A DNA stretch of 64,000 nucleotides, from the NCBI GenBank assembly GCA_947450025.1, contig CANFTW010000013.1, forward strand, positions 33,665 through 97,664, in the 5' to 3' direction. The stretch comes from Bacteroidota bacterium. Its GTDB lineage: Bacteria > Bacteroidota > Bacteroidia > B-17B0 > Aurantibacillaceae. Below the pieces are notes generated by a model, which saw only the letters and a program-made list of their open reading frames with translations, was not told the DNA's origin and did no database searches. Below are positions 21,203-55,988 of the stretch, piece by piece (position 1 is the stretch's first letter; each line of letters opens with the position of its first letter). The translations under genes and the position numbers were made by a program.

Positions 21203-22708
21203 TTACTCTACAAACCAACCAATTAAACGACGACGTAATTTGCTGGTGTAGGTTTGTGTTTGATAATCGGTATAATTATTAGTAGCATTAATACATTTAG
21301 CAAACTGTTTTACACGGTATTTGACTTCTTCATTTAATAAATCAAATAATTCAAAAGCTTCATCAAAATCTGCTGCGTTATCTTTTATACGTCCAAAGTG
21401 GTCATCTAGTGACTGATCCAATACTGTTTGAGGTTTTAATCCTTTTCGTAAACATTGTAAATAACGCTCACGAACAATAAAAGCCTCGGCAGATGAATTT
21501 AAGAAACGAGCTTTAATGTCATCAGGTAACTCGTAATCGTTTTCTAACTCATAATCCCACTCGTCTTTATAACGTTGTTCTAAATATAAATGTGGGGCTA
21601 CAAATACATGTTTCCAATCAATAGGAAATTGCCATAAATTAAAACGCCTGGAGTTATTACCTAAATCAACAATACTAAATTTCTTTTTATGAGGCAGAAC
21701 ACGAGAACCACGACCAATCATTTGATGATACAATGTCAATGATTTGGTAGCACGATTTAAAATAATTGTTTCAACTTCAGGTTCATCAAAACCAGTGGTT
21801 AAAATACTTACTGAACTTAAAATACCATCTTTAGTGTTTCTAAACCAATCTAAAGTTTCTGCTCTATCTCGATCACTAAATGTGCTATCCAAATATCGAA
21901 TAGGGTAGCCTTTTGCTTTAAATGAATTATATACTGCTATACTTGTTAAAATACCTGCATTAAATATTAGCGTTTTGGTTCCTTTTCCAATTTCTTCATA
22001 AGCATCTAATAACTTGCCTTGCATCATCGCTTGAGTATATAACATCTCATGTGAACCCGTGGTAAACTCACCATTATTACCAACGCGCAAAGTACTTAAA
22101 TTGACGTCGTTAGAGTAGGTAACTCCTTCGGCTAAAAAGCCTTGATCAATTAATGAAGCGATACTTTCTCCTACAATGATTTCTTTATAGGTTTGATAAA
22201 GAGGTAGCTTTTTATTACTACTTAAGGGTGTAGCTGTGACGCCAAGTATATTAACACTTTCAAAATAATGAAAAATTTTACGGAACGAATTATAGTGAGC
22301 CTCATCTACAATTACTAATCCAATATCTTCTAAAAATTGTTCGTCCTCTTGTAAACGATTATTTAAGGTTTCTACTAAAGCAGTGAAACTTTGAAAATCA
22401 CTTTGTTGTGTTAACGTTTTAACTTCAGAATTGATGACCTTATTTTTAATACCAATACCCCCTAAAACATCAGAAGTTTGTTTACTTAACTCAATACGAT
22501 GTGTTAAAATTAAAACTTTACGATTAAAATGATTGATGTAACGTTTGGCTATTTCTGAAAAAATAATCGTTTTACCGCCACCAGTTGGCAACTGAAATAA
22601 AATATTTTCATTAGGCTTTGCATCTTTAAGCTTATTGAAAATAGTATTAACAGCCTCTTCTTGATAGGGGTATAATTGACGAGTTGATGTAGTTTCTTCT
22701 GTTTCCAA
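21203..22708 (-). CDS. DEAD/DEAH box helicase (SF2, XPB/SSL2-like)
   Basis: 'LPTGGGKTIIFSEIAKRY', 'IVDEAHYNSF', 'TATPLSS', 'ILTTGFDEPEVETIILNR..MIGRGSR'. Confidence 0.92.
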   Translation of the reverse strand: METEETTSTRQLYPYQEEAVNTIFNKLKDAKPNENILFQLPTGGGKTIIFSEIAKRYINHFNRKVLILTHRIELSKQTSDVLGGIGIKNKVINSEVKTLTQQSDFQSFTALVETLNNRLQEDEQFLEDIGLVIVDEAHYNSFRKIFHYFESVNILGVTATPLSSNKKLPLYQTYKEIIVGESIASLIDQGFLAEGVTYSNDVNLSTLRVGNNGEFTTGSHEMLYTQAMMQGKLLDAYEEIGKGTKTLIFNAGILTSIAVYNSFKAKGYPIRYLDSTFSDRDRAETLDWFRNTKDGILSSVSILTTGFDEPEVETIILNRATKSLTLYHQMIGRGSRVLPHKKKFSIVDLGNNSRRFNLWQFPIDWKHVFVAPHLYLEQRYKDEWDYELENDYELPDDIKARFLNSSAEAFIVRERYLQCLRKGLKPQTVLDQSLDDHFGRIKDNAADFDEAFELFDLLNEEVKYRVKQFAKCINATNNYTDYQTQTYTSKLRRRLIGWFVE

Positions 22709-36987: not shown

Positions 36988-37527
36988 ATGAAACATCTCA
37001 TTCTATTCTGCGTTCTATCCTATAAGCTATTTGCTCAAACATTAAATTATGAGCAAATAAAAAAATATGTTTCAAAAATAGATTCTCTCAAACAACATCA
37101 TCAACTTAAATCATATACCAATTCAGTCATGTCTTTTTGCGGAGGTGGAGTTAAGGGATATTATGACCATCATCAATTAGTTTATATCAATTCTACCTAT
37201 TCTGCAGAACTAGGTTATTCAAGTCGTATTGTATACTTAAAAGACTCTGTTCCTTACAAAATTATTTACAGAGAACATTTTGCTGAATGGGATAAACACC
37301 TTAAAAAATATCCAAATTCAAATGATCAAGATATCGAAAAAAGAATGACTTACACTGATACGGTATATACCATTATTTTAAGCAAAAACACTGTCGTTAC
37401 TAAATTATCAAACCATAAAGTCATTAGTCATATCATAAATCAAGAACTCCTCAAGCACTTATTAGAGTGTGTTCAGGTGATGAGATTAGAAATTGAAAAA
37501 GAAAAAAATGGTCAAAAAGACCAATAA
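36988..37527 (+). CDS. Exported hypothetical protein
   Basis: Signal-like N-terminus 'LILFCVLSYKLFAQ'. Confidence 0.65.
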   Translation: MKHLILFCVLSYKLFAQTLNYEQIKKYVSKIDSLKQHHQLKSYTNSVMSFCGGGVKGYYDHHQLVYINSTYSAELGYSSRIVYLKDSVPYKIIYREHFAEWDKHLKKYPNSNDQDIEKRMTYTDTVYTIILSKNTVVTKLSNHKVISHIINQELLKHLLECVQVMRLEIEKEKNGQKDQ

Positions 37528-37562
37528 TCCTTGTTTTTTAAAAAGAAATATAAAAACCAATC

Positions 37563-37841
37563 ATGACTGCTATTTATATCCTATTCGTTATTTTAATCCT
37601 TTTATTAACGATTTATTTTTTCATCAAACGTGTTGAGTTTAGAAAATTTTTAACGGGTGCTTTTTTTGTGAGTGGAGGCATTCAATTGTATCTTGCTTTT
37701 GTCAAAGTATCTATCCCTATTGTAGGCACCAACATGGTTCAAAATTCAGAAATAGGTTATACCAGAGGAACACTACACCTTATGCTTTGTATCGTTTGTT
37801 TCTATTTTGGGTTTATTAAAAAAACAACTCCTAAAAATTAA
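37563..37841 (+). CDS. Small membrane protein (about 3 TM)
   Basis: Hydrophobic segments along a 92-aa ORF. Confidence 0.6.
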   Translation: MTAIYILFVILILLLTIYFFIKRVEFRKFLTGAFFVSGGIQLYLAFVKVSIPIVGTNMVQNSEIGYTRGTLHLMLCIVCFYFGFIKKTTPKN

Positions 37842-37854
37842 AAACACCTATTCT

Positions 37855-38529
37855 ATGATTAGTAAATACCAATTAAACATACTTTTACTATTAGGTAATT
37901 TAATAGGATTTACTCAAACATTTAAGGAGATAAAAAAATTTCCTTTAAAACAATTACCTATCGTAATAGACTATAGTCTTGATGAACAAAAGTATTATGG
38001 AGCGATTTATCATACCGATACACTTAAGATTCAAGGTGAAGATTCAACTGAACGTATTATTGAAGAAGTATATGAGACTAGTGTATACAAAAAAGATTCT
38101 ACCTTACTTTTGAGTGAAGATTTTGTTAAAACGTATTTGCTCTTTTCTAACGAATCCTTATATCATCAAGAAGATTGGGATCAAGGTGATTCAATAATAA
38201 ATCAATTTTATGCTGTTGGTTCTATCAAATTTTCCAAATCATACACTGGTATAATTTACGAACGTTTTTACATCTTACGATCTTTTCCTAATTCCGAAAA
38301 GTATCTTTGCATCTTAGATGCTCAACACCACTTAGTTTCAAAATTAAAAATAGCCTCATTTATTTTTGGAGGTTGGGGCATAGGCTATTCGGGAGGTAAA
38401 GTTCCTTGGTTCCCTTTTGAACTAGGAACCATTCAAAAAGATTTACATATCCTCATTCATCATAGTCAAGGTGATCCCGATACTTTATTTAAGTTGGATG
38501 TAAAGGGAAACATTATCCCATTGAATTAA
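37855..38529 (+). CDS. Exported hypothetical protein
   Basis: ORF begins at 37807, but the in-frame ATG at 37855 (MISKYQLNILLLLGNLIGFTQ) gives a signal peptide. Confidence 0.6.
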   Translation: MISKYQLNILLLLGNLIGFTQTFKEIKKFPLKQLPIVIDYSLDEQKYYGAIYHTDTLKIQGEDSTERIIEEVYETSVYKKDSTLLLSEDFVKTYLLFSNESLYHQEDWDQGDSIINQFYAVGSIKFSKSYTGIIYERFYILRSFPNSEKYLCILDAQHHLVSKLKIASFIFGGWGIGYSGGKVPWFPFELGTIQKDLHILIHHSQGDPDTLFKLDVKGNIIPLN

Positions 38530-38592
38530 AACTCATTCATAAACAACAAAATCATTTGTAAAGTTTATCAAATTTTGTATCTTTAATTAACC

Positions 38593-39447
38593 ATGAGAAA
38601 AACCATAACGAGTCTTTTAGCCATCATCACACTTAGTGTATGCGCGCAAAAAAATCTAACCGAGGAAGCCCAACCTATTGTTGCCGAAGGAAAATTATTG
38701 TATAAATCAGAAATGGCTTCATGGTATGGAACAGACTTATTTTTAGAAAACTATAAAAACAGAGATAATATTGGAGGCTATTTCTCTTATACTGATAAAG
38801 ATATCTCTAAATGTATTTTCTTTTCAAAAGCAAATACCCCTAGGGTTATTGGCACTATATCATTTGACAGCACGTATAGTATGCAAAGTGCAAAAGTAGA
38901 CATAGCCGAAAGAGAATTTTCTAATTATGAGAACGACATTTATATCATTAGAAAAAAAGCGTTAGAAGAAGTCAATTCAGATACCTTGTTTAAATCTTAT
39001 AATAATACCAATCTTAATTTTATTCCATTAATCAATGGAAAAGAAAAAAAGGTCTATATTTTAACAGGTCCTCAACAAGGCGGCGTTGTTATTTTTGGAA
39101 ACGATTACTTATTAACCTTTGATAAAAACAATACATTAACACTTAAAAAACAACTACATAAAAACATTATACCTATCTACTACGGACAAAAAGAAGAGGA
39201 AGGAAAACAAGTTGAAGGTGCCGTGCATAATCATTTACCTGAAACAGGAGATTTTATAACAGCAACCGACATTTGCACTTTAATGCTGTATGAAAAATTT
39301 GCAAAATGGAAAACACATAATGTAGTATCAGAAAAATATTTAAATATTTGGAATTGTGAAACCAATCAATTAACTGTTATTACAATGAAAGTGGTTGATA
39401 AAATAAATAAAGACCAAGAAAAACGTCATCCTAAAAAAGTTGAATAA
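38593..39447 (+). CDS. Exported hypothetical protein
   Basis: Signal peptide 'MRKTITSLLAIITLSVCAQ'. Confidence 0.65.
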   Translation: MRKTITSLLAIITLSVCAQKNLTEEAQPIVAEGKLLYKSEMASWYGTDLFLENYKNRDNIGGYFSYTDKDISKCIFFSKANTPRVIGTISFDSTYSMQSAKVDIAEREFSNYENDIYIIRKKALEEVNSDTLFKSYNNTNLNFIPLINGKEKKVYILTGPQQGGVVIFGNDYLLTFDKNNTLTLKKQLHKNIIPIYYGQKEEEGKQVEGAVHNHLPETGDFITATDICTLMLYEKFAKWKTHNVVSEKYLNIWNCETNQLTVITMKVVDKINKDQEKRHPKKVE

Positions 39448-39449
39448 CT

Positions 39450-39854
39450 ATGAAGACATCATTAATTAATTTTATTGTATGTCTATTGCTTTGCTTTATC
39501 GAAACAGGTTGCAAAAAAACAGCTATTCCTGATCAACAAGTTAAAATGATTTTTGGGAAATGGAAAGTGGTAAATACTAGTGGAGGATTTGGCGGTGGCC
39601 CAATCTGGCCAAGTGATAAAGACATTTATTTAGAGTTCAAAGAAACTGGACGTTATAAAAAACATGAAAAAGGGAAATTAGTTAAAACCGAAAAATTCAA
39701 ATTCTCCCCTGATAAAAACAATGCCAGTAAATATATCATTGATTATGATGCTTCTAGTATGCCTGATCAAGGTTTTAGCGCATCCCATGATACTTTAATT
39801 CTTTTTGATCGTTATATTTCTGATGGTGGATATTATGTATGTATAAAAAAATAA
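39450..39854 (+). CDS. Small lipoprotein (lipocalin-like hypothetical)
   Basis: Lipobox 'LCFIETGCKK'; 'IFGKWKVVNTSGGFGGGP..YLEFKETGRYKKHEKGKL'. Confidence 0.65.
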   Translation: MKTSLINFIVCLLLCFIETGCKKTAIPDQQVKMIFGKWKVVNTSGGFGGGPIWPSDKDIYLEFKETGRYKKHEKGKLVKTEKFKFSPDKNNASKYIIDYDASSMPDQGFSASHDTLILFDRYISDGGYYVCIKK

Positions 39855-40438
39855 TTACTCATTTGAAAAAATGCTTATCGGTTGGGATTTGTACCGTTTA
39901 CTTATTCTCCTTAATTCAATGTAATTCATCTAAAAAAGAATCAACCCAAGAAAAAGCTCCATTAACGATTGGTGGTTTATATCATTTTGCCCAAACAGAA
40001 GATACTTCATTTTGTAATTCTGAATTAATTATTGGTTCGGATTGCGCAGGTGGTGATTTATATTTTTCAAAACAACACACCGTCATTTTTCAATTTTATT
40101 GCCAAGTACAAGATAGTATATCTTATGATTTAGGAACCTATAGTTTAAGCGATAGTACCATTCAATGTGAATTTACACTCAGTTTCACATATGCATACAA
40201 CGAAATGGATTCACTTCAATTAGAAATTCATCAAGGCGTATTTCAAACAATAAAAACAAAAAGTAAAGTTTTAGTAAAACCTATTGTATGTTCTGAATTT
40301 CCTTTCTATTTCAACTTAACTTGGGAGAGTGATGGAACTTATTGTTATGTTTTAAAGACTGCGGATACTATAAGCTCTCAATTGTTTTTATCAAATATGG
40401 AAAAAATTAAGGCCTTTCAAACGTATCTCAAAAAATAA
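39839..40438 (+). CDS. Hypothetical lipoprotein
   Basis: Lipobox-like 'LFSLIQCNSS'; overlaps the previous ORF by 16 nt. Confidence 0.6.
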   Translation: MYKKIITHLKKCLSVGICTVYLFSLIQCNSSKKESTQEKAPLTIGGLYHFAQTEDTSFCNSELIIGSDCAGGDLYFSKQHTVIFQFYCQVQDSISYDLGTYSLSDSTIQCEFTLSFTYAYNEMDSLQLEIHQGVFQTIKTKSKVLVKPIVCSEFPFYFNLTWESDGTYCYVLKTADTISSQLFLSNMEKIKAFQTYLKK

Positions 40439-40485
40439 TATAATTTAGATACACCTAATCAAAAAACATTTTTAAAAACATCACC

Positions 40486-40950
40486 ATGAAACACATTTTA
40501 GTATTATCGCTTTTAATCTTTAGTTTTGGAGCTGCTAAATCTCAAACCAAGGTATACAAAGGAAATTCTACCAGCTACTCGGATTGTTTATATACCATTA
40601 GTAGTGATAAAATTTACCGAAATAATTCGACGAGCTATTCGGATTGTAAATACACCATCAATTCTAACAAAGTATATCAAGGCAATTCTACTAGTTATTC
40701 CGATTGCTTATATACCATTAGTGGTGATAAAATATATAAAGGTAATTCAACGAGTTATTCGGATTGCTTATATACCATTAGTGGTGATAAAATATATAAA
40801 GGTAATTCAACGAGTTATTCAGATTGTGTATTAACCATTGATGGCAAAAAAGTGTATCAAGGTAATTCAACGAGTTACTCCGATTGTTTAGCGACGGTAG
40901 ATGGGATTGTAAAATATACTGAAGTCGCTATTTTAATTGGACCTTATTAA
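40486..40950 (+). CDS. Exported tandem-repeat protein (6 x 20 aa)
   Basis: Signal peptide 'MKHILVLSLLIFSFGAAKSQ' followed by repeats of Y-x-G-N-S-T-S-Y-S-D-C-x-x-T-I-x-x-x-K-[IV]. Confidence 0.8.
   Translation: MKHILVLSLLIFSFGAAKSQTKVYKGNSTSYSDCLYTISSDKIYRNNSTSYSDCKYTINSNKVYQGNSTSYSDCLYTISGDKIYKGNSTSYSDCLYTISGDKIYKGNSTSYSDCVLTIDGKKVYQGNSTSYSDCLATVDGIVKYTEVAILIGPY
40561..40920 (+). repeat. Six 60-bp tandem repeats
   Basis: Units at 40561, 40621, 40681, 40741, 40801 and 40861; for example 40704-40740 and 40764-40800 are identical over the 3' part of the unit. Confidence 0.93.
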
Positions 40951-40963
40951 CTTTTCCGAGCTC

Positions 40964-41155
40964 TTGAAAAAAAGAACGATATACCTTTTAGTTGGCTGTT
41001 TACTTGTAATCATCAGTATCATCACACTACCTTTAACATTTATATACATAACCTTAATCAATACTAATTTTTGGCCATTTCTGATTTTATGTTTAGGATG
41101 TTTGATATGGGGAATACAACTTATAGTCAAAGGCATTCTATTAAAAAATGAATAA
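40964..41155 (+). CDS. Small membrane protein (2 TM)
   Basis: TTG start at 40964 (LKKRTIYLLVGCLLVII..) in frame with the longer ORF from 40937. Confidence 0.5.
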   Translation: MKKRTIYLLVGCLLVIISIITLPLTFIYITLINTNFWPFLILCLGCLIWGIQLIVKGILLKNE

Positions 41156-41210
41156 GGGTATAATTAAAACATTAGCAATCCTTATATTTATATAAGGAAA
41201 AAGTCAATCC

Positions 41211-41597
41211 ATGAAAGGTAAAATTTTAAATATACTATTACTCATCACTTCTTTTATAGGTTATTTAGAATGGAGTGGGGGAAATCATTTATTTTTATGG
41301 CAAGCAGAAAAAGATATTATCATTAAATTTTTCAATAGCCCCTCATCAGTATTACATCCTTTTATCTTAATTCCCTTTATTGGCCAACTATTACTGATTT
41401 TTACACTTTTTCAAAAAAAACCTACTACCATCATAACCTATTTTGGGATAGTAACTTTAGGCATATTATTGTTATTCATGTTTATCATTGGCATCATTAG
41501 TTTAAATCTTAAAATCATCAGCTCATGTATTCCATTTTTAGGATTAGCCATCATTACTATCCAATATCATAGATCATTAAAACTTATAATCACATGA
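41211..41597 (+). CDS. Multi-pass membrane protein of unknown function
   Basis: About 4 hydrophobic segments; stop overlaps the start of the next gene (ATGA). Confidence 0.6.
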   Translation: MKGKILNILLLITSFIGYLEWSGGNHLFLWQAEKDIIIKFFNSPSSVLHPFILIPFIGQLLLIFTLFQKKPTTIITYFGIVTLGILLLFMFIIGIISLNLKIISSCIPFLGLAIITIQYHRSLKLIIT

Positions 41598-42523
41598 GAC
41601 ATTTTAAAATCCTTGGAGTATTCATCATTTTAGTGAGCGTCTCCTCCTTTCAATTTTCTTCAGAAATAGAGACCAACATCAAAACTCCAACATCAGATTC
41701 AAGTACCCATTGGCTAACATTATATGGCAAATATATTTACCAACATGAATCATGTGCGAATTGTCATTCATTAGTTGATACAGAACAATCTGTATACATT
41801 AGCTTAGATGGTCTAAGTGGCAAATATCCAAACTCTTGGCATTACAATCACTTACTAGAACCACAAATGATGGTTCCAGATTCTAAAATGCCTGTTTATG
41901 CTTATCTTATTGATAAACCATTAAATCAACAAACGTTTAATGCAATAATAGATCAATCAATTGTTCAACCTTCGGCGATTAACCCAAACACCTTATGGCA
42001 AATCTTACATGAAGAAGCTCAATATGTCGCAAATGATTTAAAGAAATATGGGATAGAAAACACCCAATCAACTGAAATTCTTGCAATCATCGCCTATTTA
42101 CAAAAAATTCCAGCCAGTCCAATCCGACGTCAAAAAGACTCTATTATAACCGCAGAGTATAAAAGGAAACAACAGATTTGGGATCAAGTATTAATAGATA
42201 GTAATCATGTTGTTATGAAAAATGCTTTAGATAAAACAAATATCCCAGCTGGAAAAATTATTTTTAAAAATAATTGTTCGGCTTGCCATGGGATTGATGG
42301 AGAAGGATTAATTGGTCCAAATTTAACAGATGAATATTGGATAAACGGAGCTAAGCTATCTCATGTGATCAATACCATAGTGAATGGTATTCCTGAAAAA
42401 GGTATGATGGCATGGAGAAATCAATTAACTCCACTTGAGGTTGGTCAAGTTACATCGTATATTTTTTCCATTAAAGGATTTAAACCCAAACATGCGAAGC
42501 AAAAACAAGGGATGAAAGAATAA
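41594..42523 (+). CDS. Di-heme cytochrome c, CcoO-like segment plus CcoP-like C-terminal heme domain
   Basis: 'CANCHS' + 'LSGKYPNSWHYNHLLEPQMMVPDSKMPVYAYLIDKPLN' + 'TEILAIIAYLQKIP' (CcoO-like), then 'CSACHGIDGEGLIGPNLTDEYWINGAKLSHVINTIVNGIPEKGMMAWRNQLTPLEVGQVTSYIFS' (CcoP-like). Confidence 0.85.
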   Translation: MRHFKILGVFIILVSVSSFQFSSEIETNIKTPTSDSSTHWLTLYGKYIYQHESCANCHSLVDTEQSVYISLDGLSGKYPNSWHYNHLLEPQMMVPDSKMPVYAYLIDKPLNQQTFNAIIDQSIVQPSAINPNTLWQILHEEAQYVANDLKKYGIENTQSTEILAIIAYLQKIPASPIRRQKDSIITAEYKRKQQIWDQVLIDSNHVVMKNALDKTNIPAGKIIFKNNCSACHGIDGEGLIGPNLTDEYWINGAKLSHVINTIVNGIPEKGMMAWRNQLTPLEVGQVTSYIFSIKGFKPKHAKQKQGMKE

Positions 42524-42604
42524 GGTTAAAAATTCTTAATTCAAATAACAAAAACAAACCAGCAATAATAATAACCATACATTGCTTAATATAAAAAAAA
42601 TCAA

Positions 42605-43177
42605 ATGAAAACCATTTTTATTTTTACCATACTAATTAGTATCAGTGCACTTCATCAATCTTGTCGTTCATCAGATCAGTCCGATTTTGAAACACCACTA
42701 AAATTAACAACGAAAGATTCAGTAAAAAAATATTATACGATAGAAGCTTATAATAATACCAAAGGCATTTTAAGTACAGGGGAAGTCATTACTCATTTTT
42801 ATTGTCCTGATGCGATAAATGAATTCCCTCCTATAGATATCAAATCATGGAATAAAGTACCAGCTGTTAATAACCGTTTTCCCACTTATGAAGAAACCTT
42901 AAATGGAACAGCGATTCATCATTATGGCGAGAAGCCAAGCAAATTAGTTAAAGCCTACAGTTTAAGTTTGCCAAAATTAGCACGATATATTGGTCCTGTA
43001 TCAACTACTATTGCCTCACCAAAAAAAGACGAGCTAGTTGTGGTGATTCAAATTGTTCAAACCCCTGCTGATACTATTGTAGGATATAGATTTTTAAGCG
43101 GAGGAGTGGGGGGTTCAAAGATACGCGACTATCATTTTCTAACAGAGCATGAAATAGACTTAGTAACCAACCCTTAA
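42605..43177 (+). CDS. Hypothetical lipoprotein
   Basis: Lipobox 'ALHQSCRSS'. Confidence 0.6.
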   Translation: MKTIFIFTILISISALHQSCRSSDQSDFETPLKLTTKDSVKKYYTIEAYNNTKGILSTGEVITHFYCPDAINEFPPIDIKSWNKVPAVNNRFPTYEETLNGTAIHHYGEKPSKLVKAYSLSLPKLARYIGPVSTTIASPKKDELVVVIQIVQTPADTIVGYRFLSGGVGGSKIRDYHFLTEHEIDLVTNP

Positions 43178-43225
43178 TACTCAATTAAAATTATTACCAA
43201 AATTATTTTTTGAATATTTTCTATT

Positions 43226-44188
43226 ATGAAATTTATTTTAAGTATCATTTTAATAATCACTCAACTTTGGCTTATAGGTCAAGATAAATCGGTAGATAAT
43301 TCTAAAATTACTAAAACCTATAAGACCTTCATTAACCATAAATTGTGTGGATATGAAGAACACGATAAAAAAGGAAATATTATTTTCTCAAAAAACAATG
43401 GTATGAATGGGCCCATTACCATGTTATATGTTGCAGAATATGATTCATTAAGTAGAAGAACGAGATCTTATTTTGTTCATTCTAATCTTGGTTTTTCCGC
43501 TAGTGACATTGTATTTGAACCTTTAAAAATTAAATACTTTCATTTCTCTCTCGAATCTTCAGATGAAAACTCGTATAATAGAACATTTTTAAATACTGTA
43601 AATTCAAAAAAAGAATTTATGGAATTAAAAGAAACTAAAGACCTAATGAAAGGAAAAAAAGAACTTTCAAATATTGAACTATTAGATTCAACAAACCATG
43701 TCATGATCGAATATTATCTTTCAGAAAAAGGAGATACTAGTTCTATAAATACTTATCAATACAATAAAGACCATAAAGAAGTTTGGTTTCATTATGGAAC
43801 GATTGGATCAGAAGATTGGACATGGGATATTTATTCTATATATAATGACCATTTAGATAAAATAAAATCTTACAGAGTTTCAGCTACAAATGATATAAGA
43901 GATACTACTGAGGTTTATCAATATATCTATAATTCAAACCACCAACTTATATCTGAAAACTATTATCATAAGAAAAAATTCAGTCACAAAACCGATTATG
44001 TATATAATGAAAAGGGACAGCTTATTAAGGAACAATTTTATGAGGGAGATGAAGCGGTGATTGATGTGATAACCACTTATCAATATGATAAGAATACAAA
44101 GTTAGTTTCCAAAAAAGTATCTAAAGACTATAGAAATTCTAAAAAGCCAGAAACTGAAGTATGGGAGTTTAAAGCGACTTATTGGTAA
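43226..44188 (+). CDS. Exported hypothetical protein with YD/RHS-like beta repeats
   Basis: Signal peptide; 'YQYIYNSNHQLISENYYHKKKFSHKTDYVYNEKGQLIKEQFY..TTYQYDKNTKLVSKKVS'. Confidence 0.6.
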   Translation: MKFILSIILIITQLWLIGQDKSVDNSKITKTYKTFINHKLCGYEEHDKKGNIIFSKNNGMNGPITMLYVAEYDSLSRRTRSYFVHSNLGFSASDIVFEPLKIKYFHFSLESSDENSYNRTFLNTVNSKKEFMELKETKDLMKGKKELSNIELLDSTNHVMIEYYLSEKGDTSSINTYQYNKDHKEVWFHYGTIGSEDWTWDIYSIYNDHLDKIKSYRVSATNDIRDTTEVYQYIYNSNHQLISENYYHKKKFSHKTDYVYNEKGQLIKEQFYEGDEAVIDVITTYQYDKNTKLVSKKVSKDYRNSKKPETEVWEFKATYW

Positions 44189-45519: not shown

Positions 45520-47091
45520 TTAAAACACTTCATCAATATCATTCCTTCTAATGATATCTGAGCTTGGAGTATCATCGTCGTCCCACTTGGTAGACTGAAC
45601 AGTTTTTGTTGTAGGTTGAGATAAAAAATCAGTATTTTGAGCAAGACCAGAACTTGTAACATTACTTGCATAAATATCAGATCCTTCATTATAATCTAAA
45701 TCCGTAAACTTTGCAAACTGTCCGATGAATTTTAATGGAACATCAACAATTGATCCATGACGATTTTTGGCAATAATAATTTCAGCTCTATTTTTTGTTG
45801 GTTGATTATTTTCATCCACTTCAATACCATAATACTCTGGACGATAAATAAACATTACCATATCCGCATCTTGCTCAATTGCACCAGACTCACGTAAATC
45901 ACTTAATTGAGGACGCTTGCTTCCACCAGGTCTATTTTCAACCTGACGACTTAATTGAGATAAAGCAATAATCGGTATTTCTAATTCTTTTGCTAAAGAT
46001 TTTAAACCACGTGAAATTTGAGAAATTTCTTGTTCACGATTTCCTTTACTATCAGGTCCACCACTCATTAACTGTAAGTAGTCAATAATAATTAAAGATA
46101 CATTTTGTTGTTCTTTTAAACGACGAGCTTTAGCTCTTAATTCAAAAATAGATAGAGCAGGGGTATCATCAATGTATAAAGGAGCTACTGATAATTTTTT
46201 AATACGCTCATTTAATTGAACAAATTCGTGATTATCTAAATTTCCTTTTAATATTTTATCTTGATTAATTTCGGTTTCAGATGAAATTAATCGTTTGACT
46301 AATTGTAAAGAAGACATCTCTAAAGAGAAAATAGCAACTGGTTTGTTAAATTCAACAGCTGCATTTTTAGCCATAGTAACTACAAATGCTGTTTTACCCA
46401 TACCAGGACGAGCTGCTAAAATTAGTAAATCAGATTTTTGCCAACCTCCTGTAATTCTATCTAAAGCAGTAAATCCAGAAGGTACACCTAATAAACCATC
46501 CGTTTGAGCTGCAGCTGTTTCGATTTCAGTAATAGCTTGAGCAATTAAAGAAGTCATTCCTACATGTTGTTTACGAACATTTGAATCTAAAATCTCGAAA
46601 ATATGTTGAGTCGTTGCATCTAATAATTCAAACACATCCGTACTATCTTCATAAGCAGATTTAATAGTTTCTGTACTAATACGAATTAATTCACGTTGCA
46701 AATATTTTTGTGCAACAATACGAGCATGATATTCGATATTAGCTGAAGAAGCAATTCGATTAGTTAACGATGATACATAAAATGAACCGCCCACTATTTC
46801 TAATTCACCGCTACGTTTTAATTCTTGAGTAACTGTTAATATATCAACGGGTTCAGAACGATTAAATAAATTATAAATTGCTTTAAATATAATTCCGTTT
46901 TGTTCCTTATAAAAACTTTCTGGTGAAAGTACATCAATCACAGTACTTAAGGCATCTTTTTCAAGAAGCATGGCACCAAGAACAGCCTCTTCTAATTCGA
47001 TAGCTTGTGGTTGTAATTTACCAACTTCATTAGTCGATAATGGAGTATATAATTTTTTACGAGTCTTATTTTGATTATCTAAATTTTGCAT
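45520..47091 (-). CDS. dnaB: Replicative DNA helicase
   Basis: 'LEEAVLGAMLLEKDAL', 'LLILAARPGMGKTAFVVTMAKNAA', 'IIIDYLQLMSG', 'SQLSRQVENRPGGSKRPQLSDLRESGAIEQDADMVMFIYRPEYY'. Confidence 0.97.
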   Translation of the reverse strand: MQNLDNQNKTRKKLYTPLSTNEVGKLQPQAIELEEAVLGAMLLEKDALSTVIDVLSPESFYKEQNGIIFKAIYNLFNRSEPVDILTVTQELKRSGELEIVGGSFYVSSLTNRIASSANIEYHARIVAQKYLQRELIRISTETIKSAYEDSTDVFELLDATTQHIFEILDSNVRKQHVGMTSLIAQAITEIETAAAQTDGLLGVPSGFTALDRITGGWQKSDLLILAARPGMGKTAFVVTMAKNAAVEFNKPVAIFSLEMSSLQLVKRLISSETEINQDKILKGNLDNHEFVQLNERIKKLSVAPLYIDDTPALSIFELRAKARRLKEQQNVSLIIIDYLQLMSGGPDSKGNREQEISQISRGLKSLAKELEIPIIALSQLSRQVENRPGGSKRPQLSDLRESGAIEQDADMVMFIYRPEYYGIEVDENNQPTKNRAEIIIAKNRHGSIVDVPLKFIGQFAKFTDLDYNEGSDIYASNVTSSGLAQNTDFLSQPTTKTVQSTKWDDDDTPSSDIIRRNDIDEVF

Positions 47092-54252: not shown

Positions 54253-55527
54253 ATGCAACCATTAGCTGAAAGAGTTAGACCTCACCATTTAGACAATTAT
54301 ATTGGTCAGGAACATGTTATTGGTATAAATTCTGCATTAAGAAAAGCCATTGAACAAAACTTATTACCATCCATAATTTTATGGGGACCTCCTGGGGTTG
54401 GAAAAACGACTCTTGCGCAAATTATTTCTCAAACATTAAAACGTCCTTTTTATTCCTTAAGCGCTATTAATTCTGGGGTTAAAGATGTGAGAGATGTTAT
54501 TGAAAAAGCTTCTCAAGATGGTGGTTTTTTTAAACAAGAAAAGCCAGTATTGTTTATTGATGAAATTCATCGTTTTAGTAAATCGCAACAAGATTCGTTA
54601 TTAAATGCTGTTGAAAAAGGCATTGTTACTTTAATAGGAGCTACCACCGAAAATCCTTCTTTTGAGGTAATTCCCGCTCTCCTTTCAAGATGCCAAGTAG
54701 TTGTTTTAAAGCATCTTAGTAAAGATAACTTAATTCAATTATTAAATAACGCCATTATTCATGATACAGTGTTAAAAAGGAAACAAATTGTGTTAAAGGA
54801 AACAGAAGCCTTATTGAGAATTTCAGGAGGAGACGGTAGGAAATTATTAAATGCTTTAGAAATAGTTGTAAATTGTATTAACGAAATAGAAATTGTTATT
54901 ACAGATGAATTAGTGAAGCAATATATACAGCAAAATCTTGCTTTATATGATAAATCAGGGGAGCAACACTATGATATTATTTCTGCATTTATTAAATCAA
55001 TTAGAGGCTCTGATCCAAATGGAGCTGTTTATTGGCTTGCTAGAATGATTGATGGGGGGGAGGATCCCAGTTTTATTGCCCGTAGATTATTAATTTTAGC
55101 ATCTGAAGATATCGGAAATGCAAATCCTACAGCACTAGTTATTGCTAATAATTGTTTTCAAGCAGTTAATGTGATTGGATTTCCAGAAAGCCGAATTATT
55201 TTGGCTCAAACCACCACCTATTTAGCATGCTCAGCAAAAAGTAATAGCAGTTATATGGCTATTAACCTAGCTCAACAAGAGGTAAAAAAATCAGGCGACC
55301 TTCCTGTTCCTTTACATTTAAGAAATGCTCCCACTAAACTCATGAAAGAATTAGGATATGGAGATGAATATCAATATGCCCATGATTTTTCAAATCATTT
55401 TGTTAAGCAGGAATTCTTACCTAGTGAAATTAGCGGTACTGCCTTTTATAATCCCTCAGAATATTCAAGAGAAAGGGATTTAAAAGAATTTTTAAAAGAA
55501 AGATGGGGCGACAAATATGGCTACTAA
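54253..55527 (+). CDS. rarA: Replication-associated recombination protein A (AAA ATPase)
   Basis: '[19 protein letters not shown]', '[16 protein letters not shown]', '[40 protein letters not shown]'. Confidence 0.96.
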
Positions 55528-55988
55528 TCGCTTTGAAGAAATTCTGACGATGGCTCAAAAATAAAAATTTTACCAAAGCCAATAACTAAACCTCCAATAA
55601 CTTGTTCAGAAATTTGCCAAGCGCAATCGGCAATGATATAGGTTAAATTAATATTTTTTGAAAAAGAAATCCCTAAAACAGTCACTATGGAAAATAATAT
55701 AAATCCAATTAGAAAACCACTAACAACACCTCTTAATATGGGTTGTGATATATATTTATTGAAAATTTTAGATTCATATAGTCTGTACAATAGAAATGAA
55801 ATCACTAAATAGACTAAAGCCGCTAATCCTAAAAATAAACCTTTTGAAAACGTAATTCTATTTAAATCATTTAAAAAAACACCATGCCAAAAATAAAATG
55901 CTACATACATTAACACGGCAGAGATAATCCAACTTATGAAGAATCGATAGGAATACAACATCACTACAAAATTACATTTCTTTTTCAT
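55524..55988 (-). CDS. Multi-pass membrane hypothetical protein
   Basis: About 4 TM segments. Confidence 0.6.
   Translation of the reverse strand: MKKKCNFVVMLYSYRFFISWIISAVLMYVAFYFWHGVFLNDLNRITFSKGLFLGLAALVYLVISFLLYRLYESKIFNKYISQPILRGVVSGFLIGFILFSIVTVLGISFSKNINLTYIIADCAWQISEQVIGGLVIGFGKIFIFEPSSEFLQSD

Follow-up and report, generated by a model that had tools for sequence, protein, structure and literature searches.

In the 64,000-nucleotide stretch of Bacteroidota DNA analysed here (the window, from a genome of the family Aurantibacillaceae), one gene encodes a cytochrome in which a trimmed CcoO-like heme domain is joined to a CcoP-like heme domain. This protein is probably a free-standing periplasmic di-heme cytochrome c carrier, exapted from those portions of a cbb3 oxidase that bear heme. 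An earlier note on this DNA had suggested a repurposed carrier or an exapted cbb3 fragment, and an exapted fragment that now serves to carry electrons has the best support, given that both halves are derived from cbb3 oxidase, that the architecture occurs in four genomes of two families and that a cbb3 oxidase is encoded elsewhere in each of these genomes.

Table 1. Coordinates of the cytochrome gene, its parts and the overlapping upstream gene in the window.
Feature	Coordinates	Strand	Remarks
Overlapping upstream gene, reported as 4-TM	41211..41597	+	ATGA overlap
Predicted exported di-heme cytochrome c	41594..42523	+	309 aa; trimmed CcoO heme domain, linker and CcoP heme domain
N-terminal hydrophobic segment	41594..41662	+	Putative signal peptide or single anchor (Kyte-Doolittle)
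CcoO/FixO-like heme domain	41711..42118	+	Residues 40-175
Heme c motif 1, CANCH	41753..41767	+	Residues 54-58
Met99, predicted axial ligand of heme 1	41888..41890	+	P.S.MP motif; role predicted from the CcoO family
CcoP-like heme domain	42230..42490	+	Residues 213-299
Heme c motif 2, CSACH	42275..42289	+	Residues 228-232
Met271, predicted axial ligand of heme 2	42404..42406	+	KGM motif; ligand role predicted

The gene had been described as a single exported ORF with two CXXCH motifs, and the frame and both motifs were re-found at the positions listed in Table 1. In a Kyte-Doolittle scan of this protein and its three full-length relatives (the four fusions), the N terminus was the sole strongly hydrophobic segment in every case. 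Features of a di-heme carrier are present and invariant in the four related proteins: two CXXCH motifs, for which His and Met are the predicted ligands, and an N terminus that resembles a signal sequence. We infer a periplasmic location, heme attachment and a role as an electron carrier. Searches of solved structures, with the single sequence and also with a profile, returned CcoP and CcoO chains as the top matches. Structure prediction from a three-row alignment (the query and the CcoO and CcoP parts of Larkinella) gave a mean pLDDT of 47.2 and a pTM of 0.34. Scans for promoters and terminators yielded matches at chance level only.

The assignment of the two halves to CcoO and CcoP held when they were searched separately against profiles, since each matched CcoO or CcoP better than generic cytochrome c. 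The first half matched FixO (PF02433) at 2.4e-20 and, searched separately as residues 1-200, at 6.4e-21, compared with 0.0023 for generic Cytochrom_C, and residues 201-309 matched Cytochrome_CBB3 at 4.1e-12 and ccoP (TIGR00782) at 1.2e-15, compared with 7.4e-9 for Cytochrom_C. The PF02433 score was 73.4 bits (cut-off, 29.6), with the best stretch at model positions 110-215 of 219; the scores against TIGR00781 and TIGR00782 were 50.4 bits (cut-off, 200.65) and 57.2 bits (cut-off, 179.95), respectively. The O half (residues 69-173) was 38% identical to the CcoNO of the same genome, and the P half (residues 202-306) was 50% identical to its CcoP. The CcoP frames of the source genome and its relatives carry one CXXCH each, and thus the counterpart of the C-terminal half is the single heme domain that such a Bacteroidota CcoP has.

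What has been lost from CcoO is similar in all four fusions. In the window protein, the region between the first CXXCH and GKYP is indeed shortened, as originally noticed, to 17 residues versus 44 in the genome's own CcoO. Mostly missing from each fusion is the stretch RPFRSETxRYGEYSKAGExxYDxPFxWGSKRTGPDL, which has a mean column conservation of 96% in canonical CcoO, compared with 80% before it and 74% after it. Given how conserved it is and what is generally known of cbb3 oxidases, the missing stretch is assumed to serve assembly with CcoN. The CcoO transmembrane helix is also absent from all four proteins, and the Kyte-Doolittle scan found no membrane segment immediately before the CcoP-like heme domain. 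The first heme motif (cysteines and histidine invariant), WH and MP are retained in all four; Met99 is invariant, also in CcoO, and three of the fusions retain the serine of the P.S.MP motif. Outside the missing stretch, half of the positions with at least 95% conservation in canonical CcoO (18 of 36) are kept in at least three fusions. The cysteines and histidine of the second heme motif and the KGM motif are likewise invariant in all four.

Several known systems resemble the fusion in part. A close one is CcoO/FixO (PF02433 and TIGR00781; the C-terminal part of Bacteroidota CcoNO, NF011053/PRK14485), which has in common with it the heme motif, the GGKYPxxWHYxH and P.S.MP segments and a C-terminal EI.A.IAYLQ helix; the fusion differs in that it lacks the transmembrane helix, is 27 residues shorter between the heme motif and GKYP than the CcoO of the same genome and is not encoded with CcoN. 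With CcoP/FixP (TIGR00782, PF13442) it shares a heme domain bearing GPNLTDEYW and PEKGM motifs, but not the N-terminal membrane part. The same order, an O part followed by a C-terminal cytochrome c domain, is found in PRK14486/NF011054, a putative bifunctional CcoO/cytochrome c. This model was the top NCBIfam match of the query by E-value (2.1e-25) and was matched by all four fusions, yet the query scored 89.9 bits against a cut-off of 447, and its best stretch began at position 111 of 294, leaving the N-terminal part of the model unmatched there. The protein is therefore made of known modules in a new domain arrangement, one met by no curated model searched, rather than a system of a new kind. 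Among the titles and abstracts listed by searches of open-licence papers with the terms used, none described a fusion of CcoO and CcoP that lacks CcoN.

The source assembly (G000; 3.2 Mb, 28 contigs) is 99.96% complete, and its COX1 matches are confined to contigs C8 and C9, while the window lies on C13, in agreement with the original statement that no CcoN is encoded in the 64 kb. The search for a full cbb3 operon elsewhere in the genome found an intact ccoS-ccoNO-ccoP-ccoG. The term orphan, which the earlier note had used, thus fits the locus but not the genome, which has both ccoNO and ccoP. Two COX1 proteins are present, one of the aa3 type and one a CcoNO fusion. The fusion cytochrome matches the c-type part of this oxidase in the number and order of its c hemes, here carried by a single chain without CcoN, and its domain order is that of the ccoNO-ccoP operon. 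Each of the four carrier genomes has frames for CcoNO and CcoP as well as a COX1 of the aa3 type, so the fusion does not have to make up for absent c hemes; in G000, with an intact cbb3 operon and an aa3 oxidase elsewhere, it is an extra, free-standing protein. As a separate observation, one carrier genome (G023, at L056) has a third COX1 match of 449 aa that follows a 142-aa CXXCH frame, resembling the cNorB/NorC pair of nitric oxide reductase; G000 and G201 have two COX1 matches only.

These observations also bear on whether the fusion is an alternative subunit of the cell's own cbb3 oxidase, which either joins CcoNO in place of CcoP or provides an extra point of electron entry. Both halves are derived from cbb3 oxidase, CcoNO occurs in every carrier genome and an anchored fusion could still dock on CcoN via other surfaces. 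In Pseudomonas aeruginosa, moreover, orphan CcoN assembles with the products of other operons (PMC5697931). However, the fusion has lost the transmembrane helix of CcoO, the membrane part of CcoP and most of the CcoO stretch that is conserved best, and a CcoP frame stands beside CcoNO in each of the four genomes. With O already part of the CcoNO chain, a further O-like half would be redundant in the oxidase. We consider such a subunit role unlikely.

Full-length relatives of the protein, 34-38% identical to it, were found in three genomes: G023, from another genus of the same family, and G201 and G439, from two genera of a second family. Carriers of the fusion therefore number 2 among the 87 genomes of the family (also the whole set compared for its order), with two more in a class-wide sample of 395. 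At the cut-offs used, there was no further fusion in the 20-member genus, nor in the 87-genome family besides G023, and a phylum sample of 395 gave canonical CcoP only, besides the query itself. In the class and phylum samples the best five candidates per genome were scored, and absences there are less certain for that reason. Viral contigs and phage records held no relative. Plasmid records held canonical operons, the best of which (Bernardetia) covers the query only across two separate genes, and a scan of genome contigs returned only a canonical ccoNO-ccoP operon of Larkinella.

In trees of each half, the four fusions were split off by a single branch, with supports of 100/99 among canonical CcoO (28 rows) and 97/95 among canonical CcoP (35 rows; bootstrap not fully settled). 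Because the four form one clade in both halves, the sequence comparison favours a single origin for them. The branches of the O half are very long, so the exact placement among CcoO is unsure, as is, given the P-half bootstrap too, the root of the family within CcoO and CcoP.

We propose that a trimmed CcoO heme domain was joined via a linker to a CcoP heme domain, and that CcoN, all but one hydrophobic segment and most of the conserved CcoO stretch were lost. The CcoP-to-CcoO electron relay between the two c hemes would most likely have been kept. The product would be a soluble or singly anchored carrier, for which alternative complex III or another c-type donor is the candidate electron source and a periplasmic acceptor or a terminal oxidase the candidate target.

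The surroundings of the gene raise a second alternative. In three sister genomes (G006, G008 and G016), dnaB (45520-47091 in the window) adjoins, or lies at most about 1.2 kb from, a helicase gene matching 21203-22708. In G000, about 22.7 kb (22806-45507), including the cytochrome gene, separates dnaB from the helicase gene, which points to a variable site that has undergone insertion or rearrangement. The dnaB flank of the other sisters examined had no match to the window. A search for tRNA genes in the window gave none, and none of the genes scanned was recognised as an integrase. Between 28664 and 34427, this segment encodes a multicopper oxidase and a YHYH protein (each with a Por secretion tail), an AhpC/TSA redoxin, an MbnP-family protein and a MauG/CCP-type di-heme protein. 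The last may be an MbnH-like partner of the MbnP-family protein, and the cluster suggests periplasmic or secreted copper handling.

MauG/CCP-type enzymes draw on external c-type electron carriers. The cytochrome could thus be the dedicated carrier of a nearby enzyme, for instance of the multicopper oxidase or the di-heme protein of MauG/MbnH type that are encoded 7-13 kb upstream, and it does share the species-specific segment (22.8-45.5 kb) with these two and MbnP. However, the intervening DNA spans at least 7 kb with several unrelated genes, and these neighbours are present at none of the three other fusion loci. We regard a dedicated role of this kind as improbable. Around the cytochrome (36988-44188) is a run of small, mostly exported proteins, and those scanned had no Pfam match. 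Within these coordinates, 40486-40950 encodes an exported 154-aa protein of short tandem repeats of the type KVYxGNSTSYSDCxYTI.

The earlier note had also pointed to the overlapping 4-TM gene as a possible partner. The ATG of the cytochrome gene does overlap the stop of this gene as ATGA, the two are probably co-transcribed in G000 and the overlap suggests translational coupling there, as would suit a complex in which the 4-TM protein serves as anchor or electron feed. However, when eight other genomes of the family with a 4-TM homologue were checked, no fusion match was found in the 1.5 kb flanks of any homologue. Conversely, G023 has the fusion and no 4-TM homologue at the cut-off. The proposed partnership is not supported by this comparison, and a complex of the two proteins is very unlikely. 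No CcoN was seen among the neighbours read at the G023, G201 and G439 loci, and no neighbouring gene was common to the four fusion loci, apart from one distant pair common to two loci (15859-16368 of L044 and 55524-55988 of the window), whose distance from the cytochrome exceeds 10 kb at either locus. The loci thus point to no particular partner, and the fusion gene behaves as a stand-alone unit.

Least credible of all is a functionless, decaying remnant of a duplicated ccoNO-ccoP operon, which would suit the rare and patchy distribution, but has largely been refuted by the existence of conserved relatives. In two families, four frames are intact over their full length at 34-38% identity and have kept the heme motifs, the Met residues predicted as ligands and many further invariant positions, which implies selection.

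For the exapted carrier, a change of role relative to the cbb3 subunits is probable. In Neisseria, an extra C-terminal heme domain of CcoP, likewise a CcoP-type heme, diverts electrons from the oxidase to nitrite reduction, but, unlike the fusion, stays within the oxidase (PMC8552683). For Flavobacterium johnsoniae, it has been proposed that alternative complex III has additional acceptors (PMC8552683). By analogy with this proposal and the Neisseria precedent, a diverting role for the fusion is plausible. More tentatively, the four proteins could form a distinct, unnamed family of free-standing cytochromes: a c-heme relay taken from cbb3 oxidase, separated from the catalytic subunit and now diverting electrons of the respiratory chain to a different acceptor, while a complete cbb3 oxidase is still present.

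As with orphan CcoN of Pseudomonas, a cbb3 subunit is here encoded apart from its operon (PMC5697931). Orphan CcoN proteins are catalytic, sit in the membrane and form complexes with CcoO and CcoP, whereas the fusion is the reverse, electron-transfer domains without CcoN. As this mirror image, it suggests that the electron-transfer subunits of heme-copper oxidases can be detached, fused and kept separately. Annotation pipelines could easily mislabel such a protein as an oxidase subunit. Not all of the routes by which electrons leave alternative complex III in the Bacteroidota are known (PMC8552683), and a carrier derived from cbb3 oxidase would be a concrete candidate for one of them.
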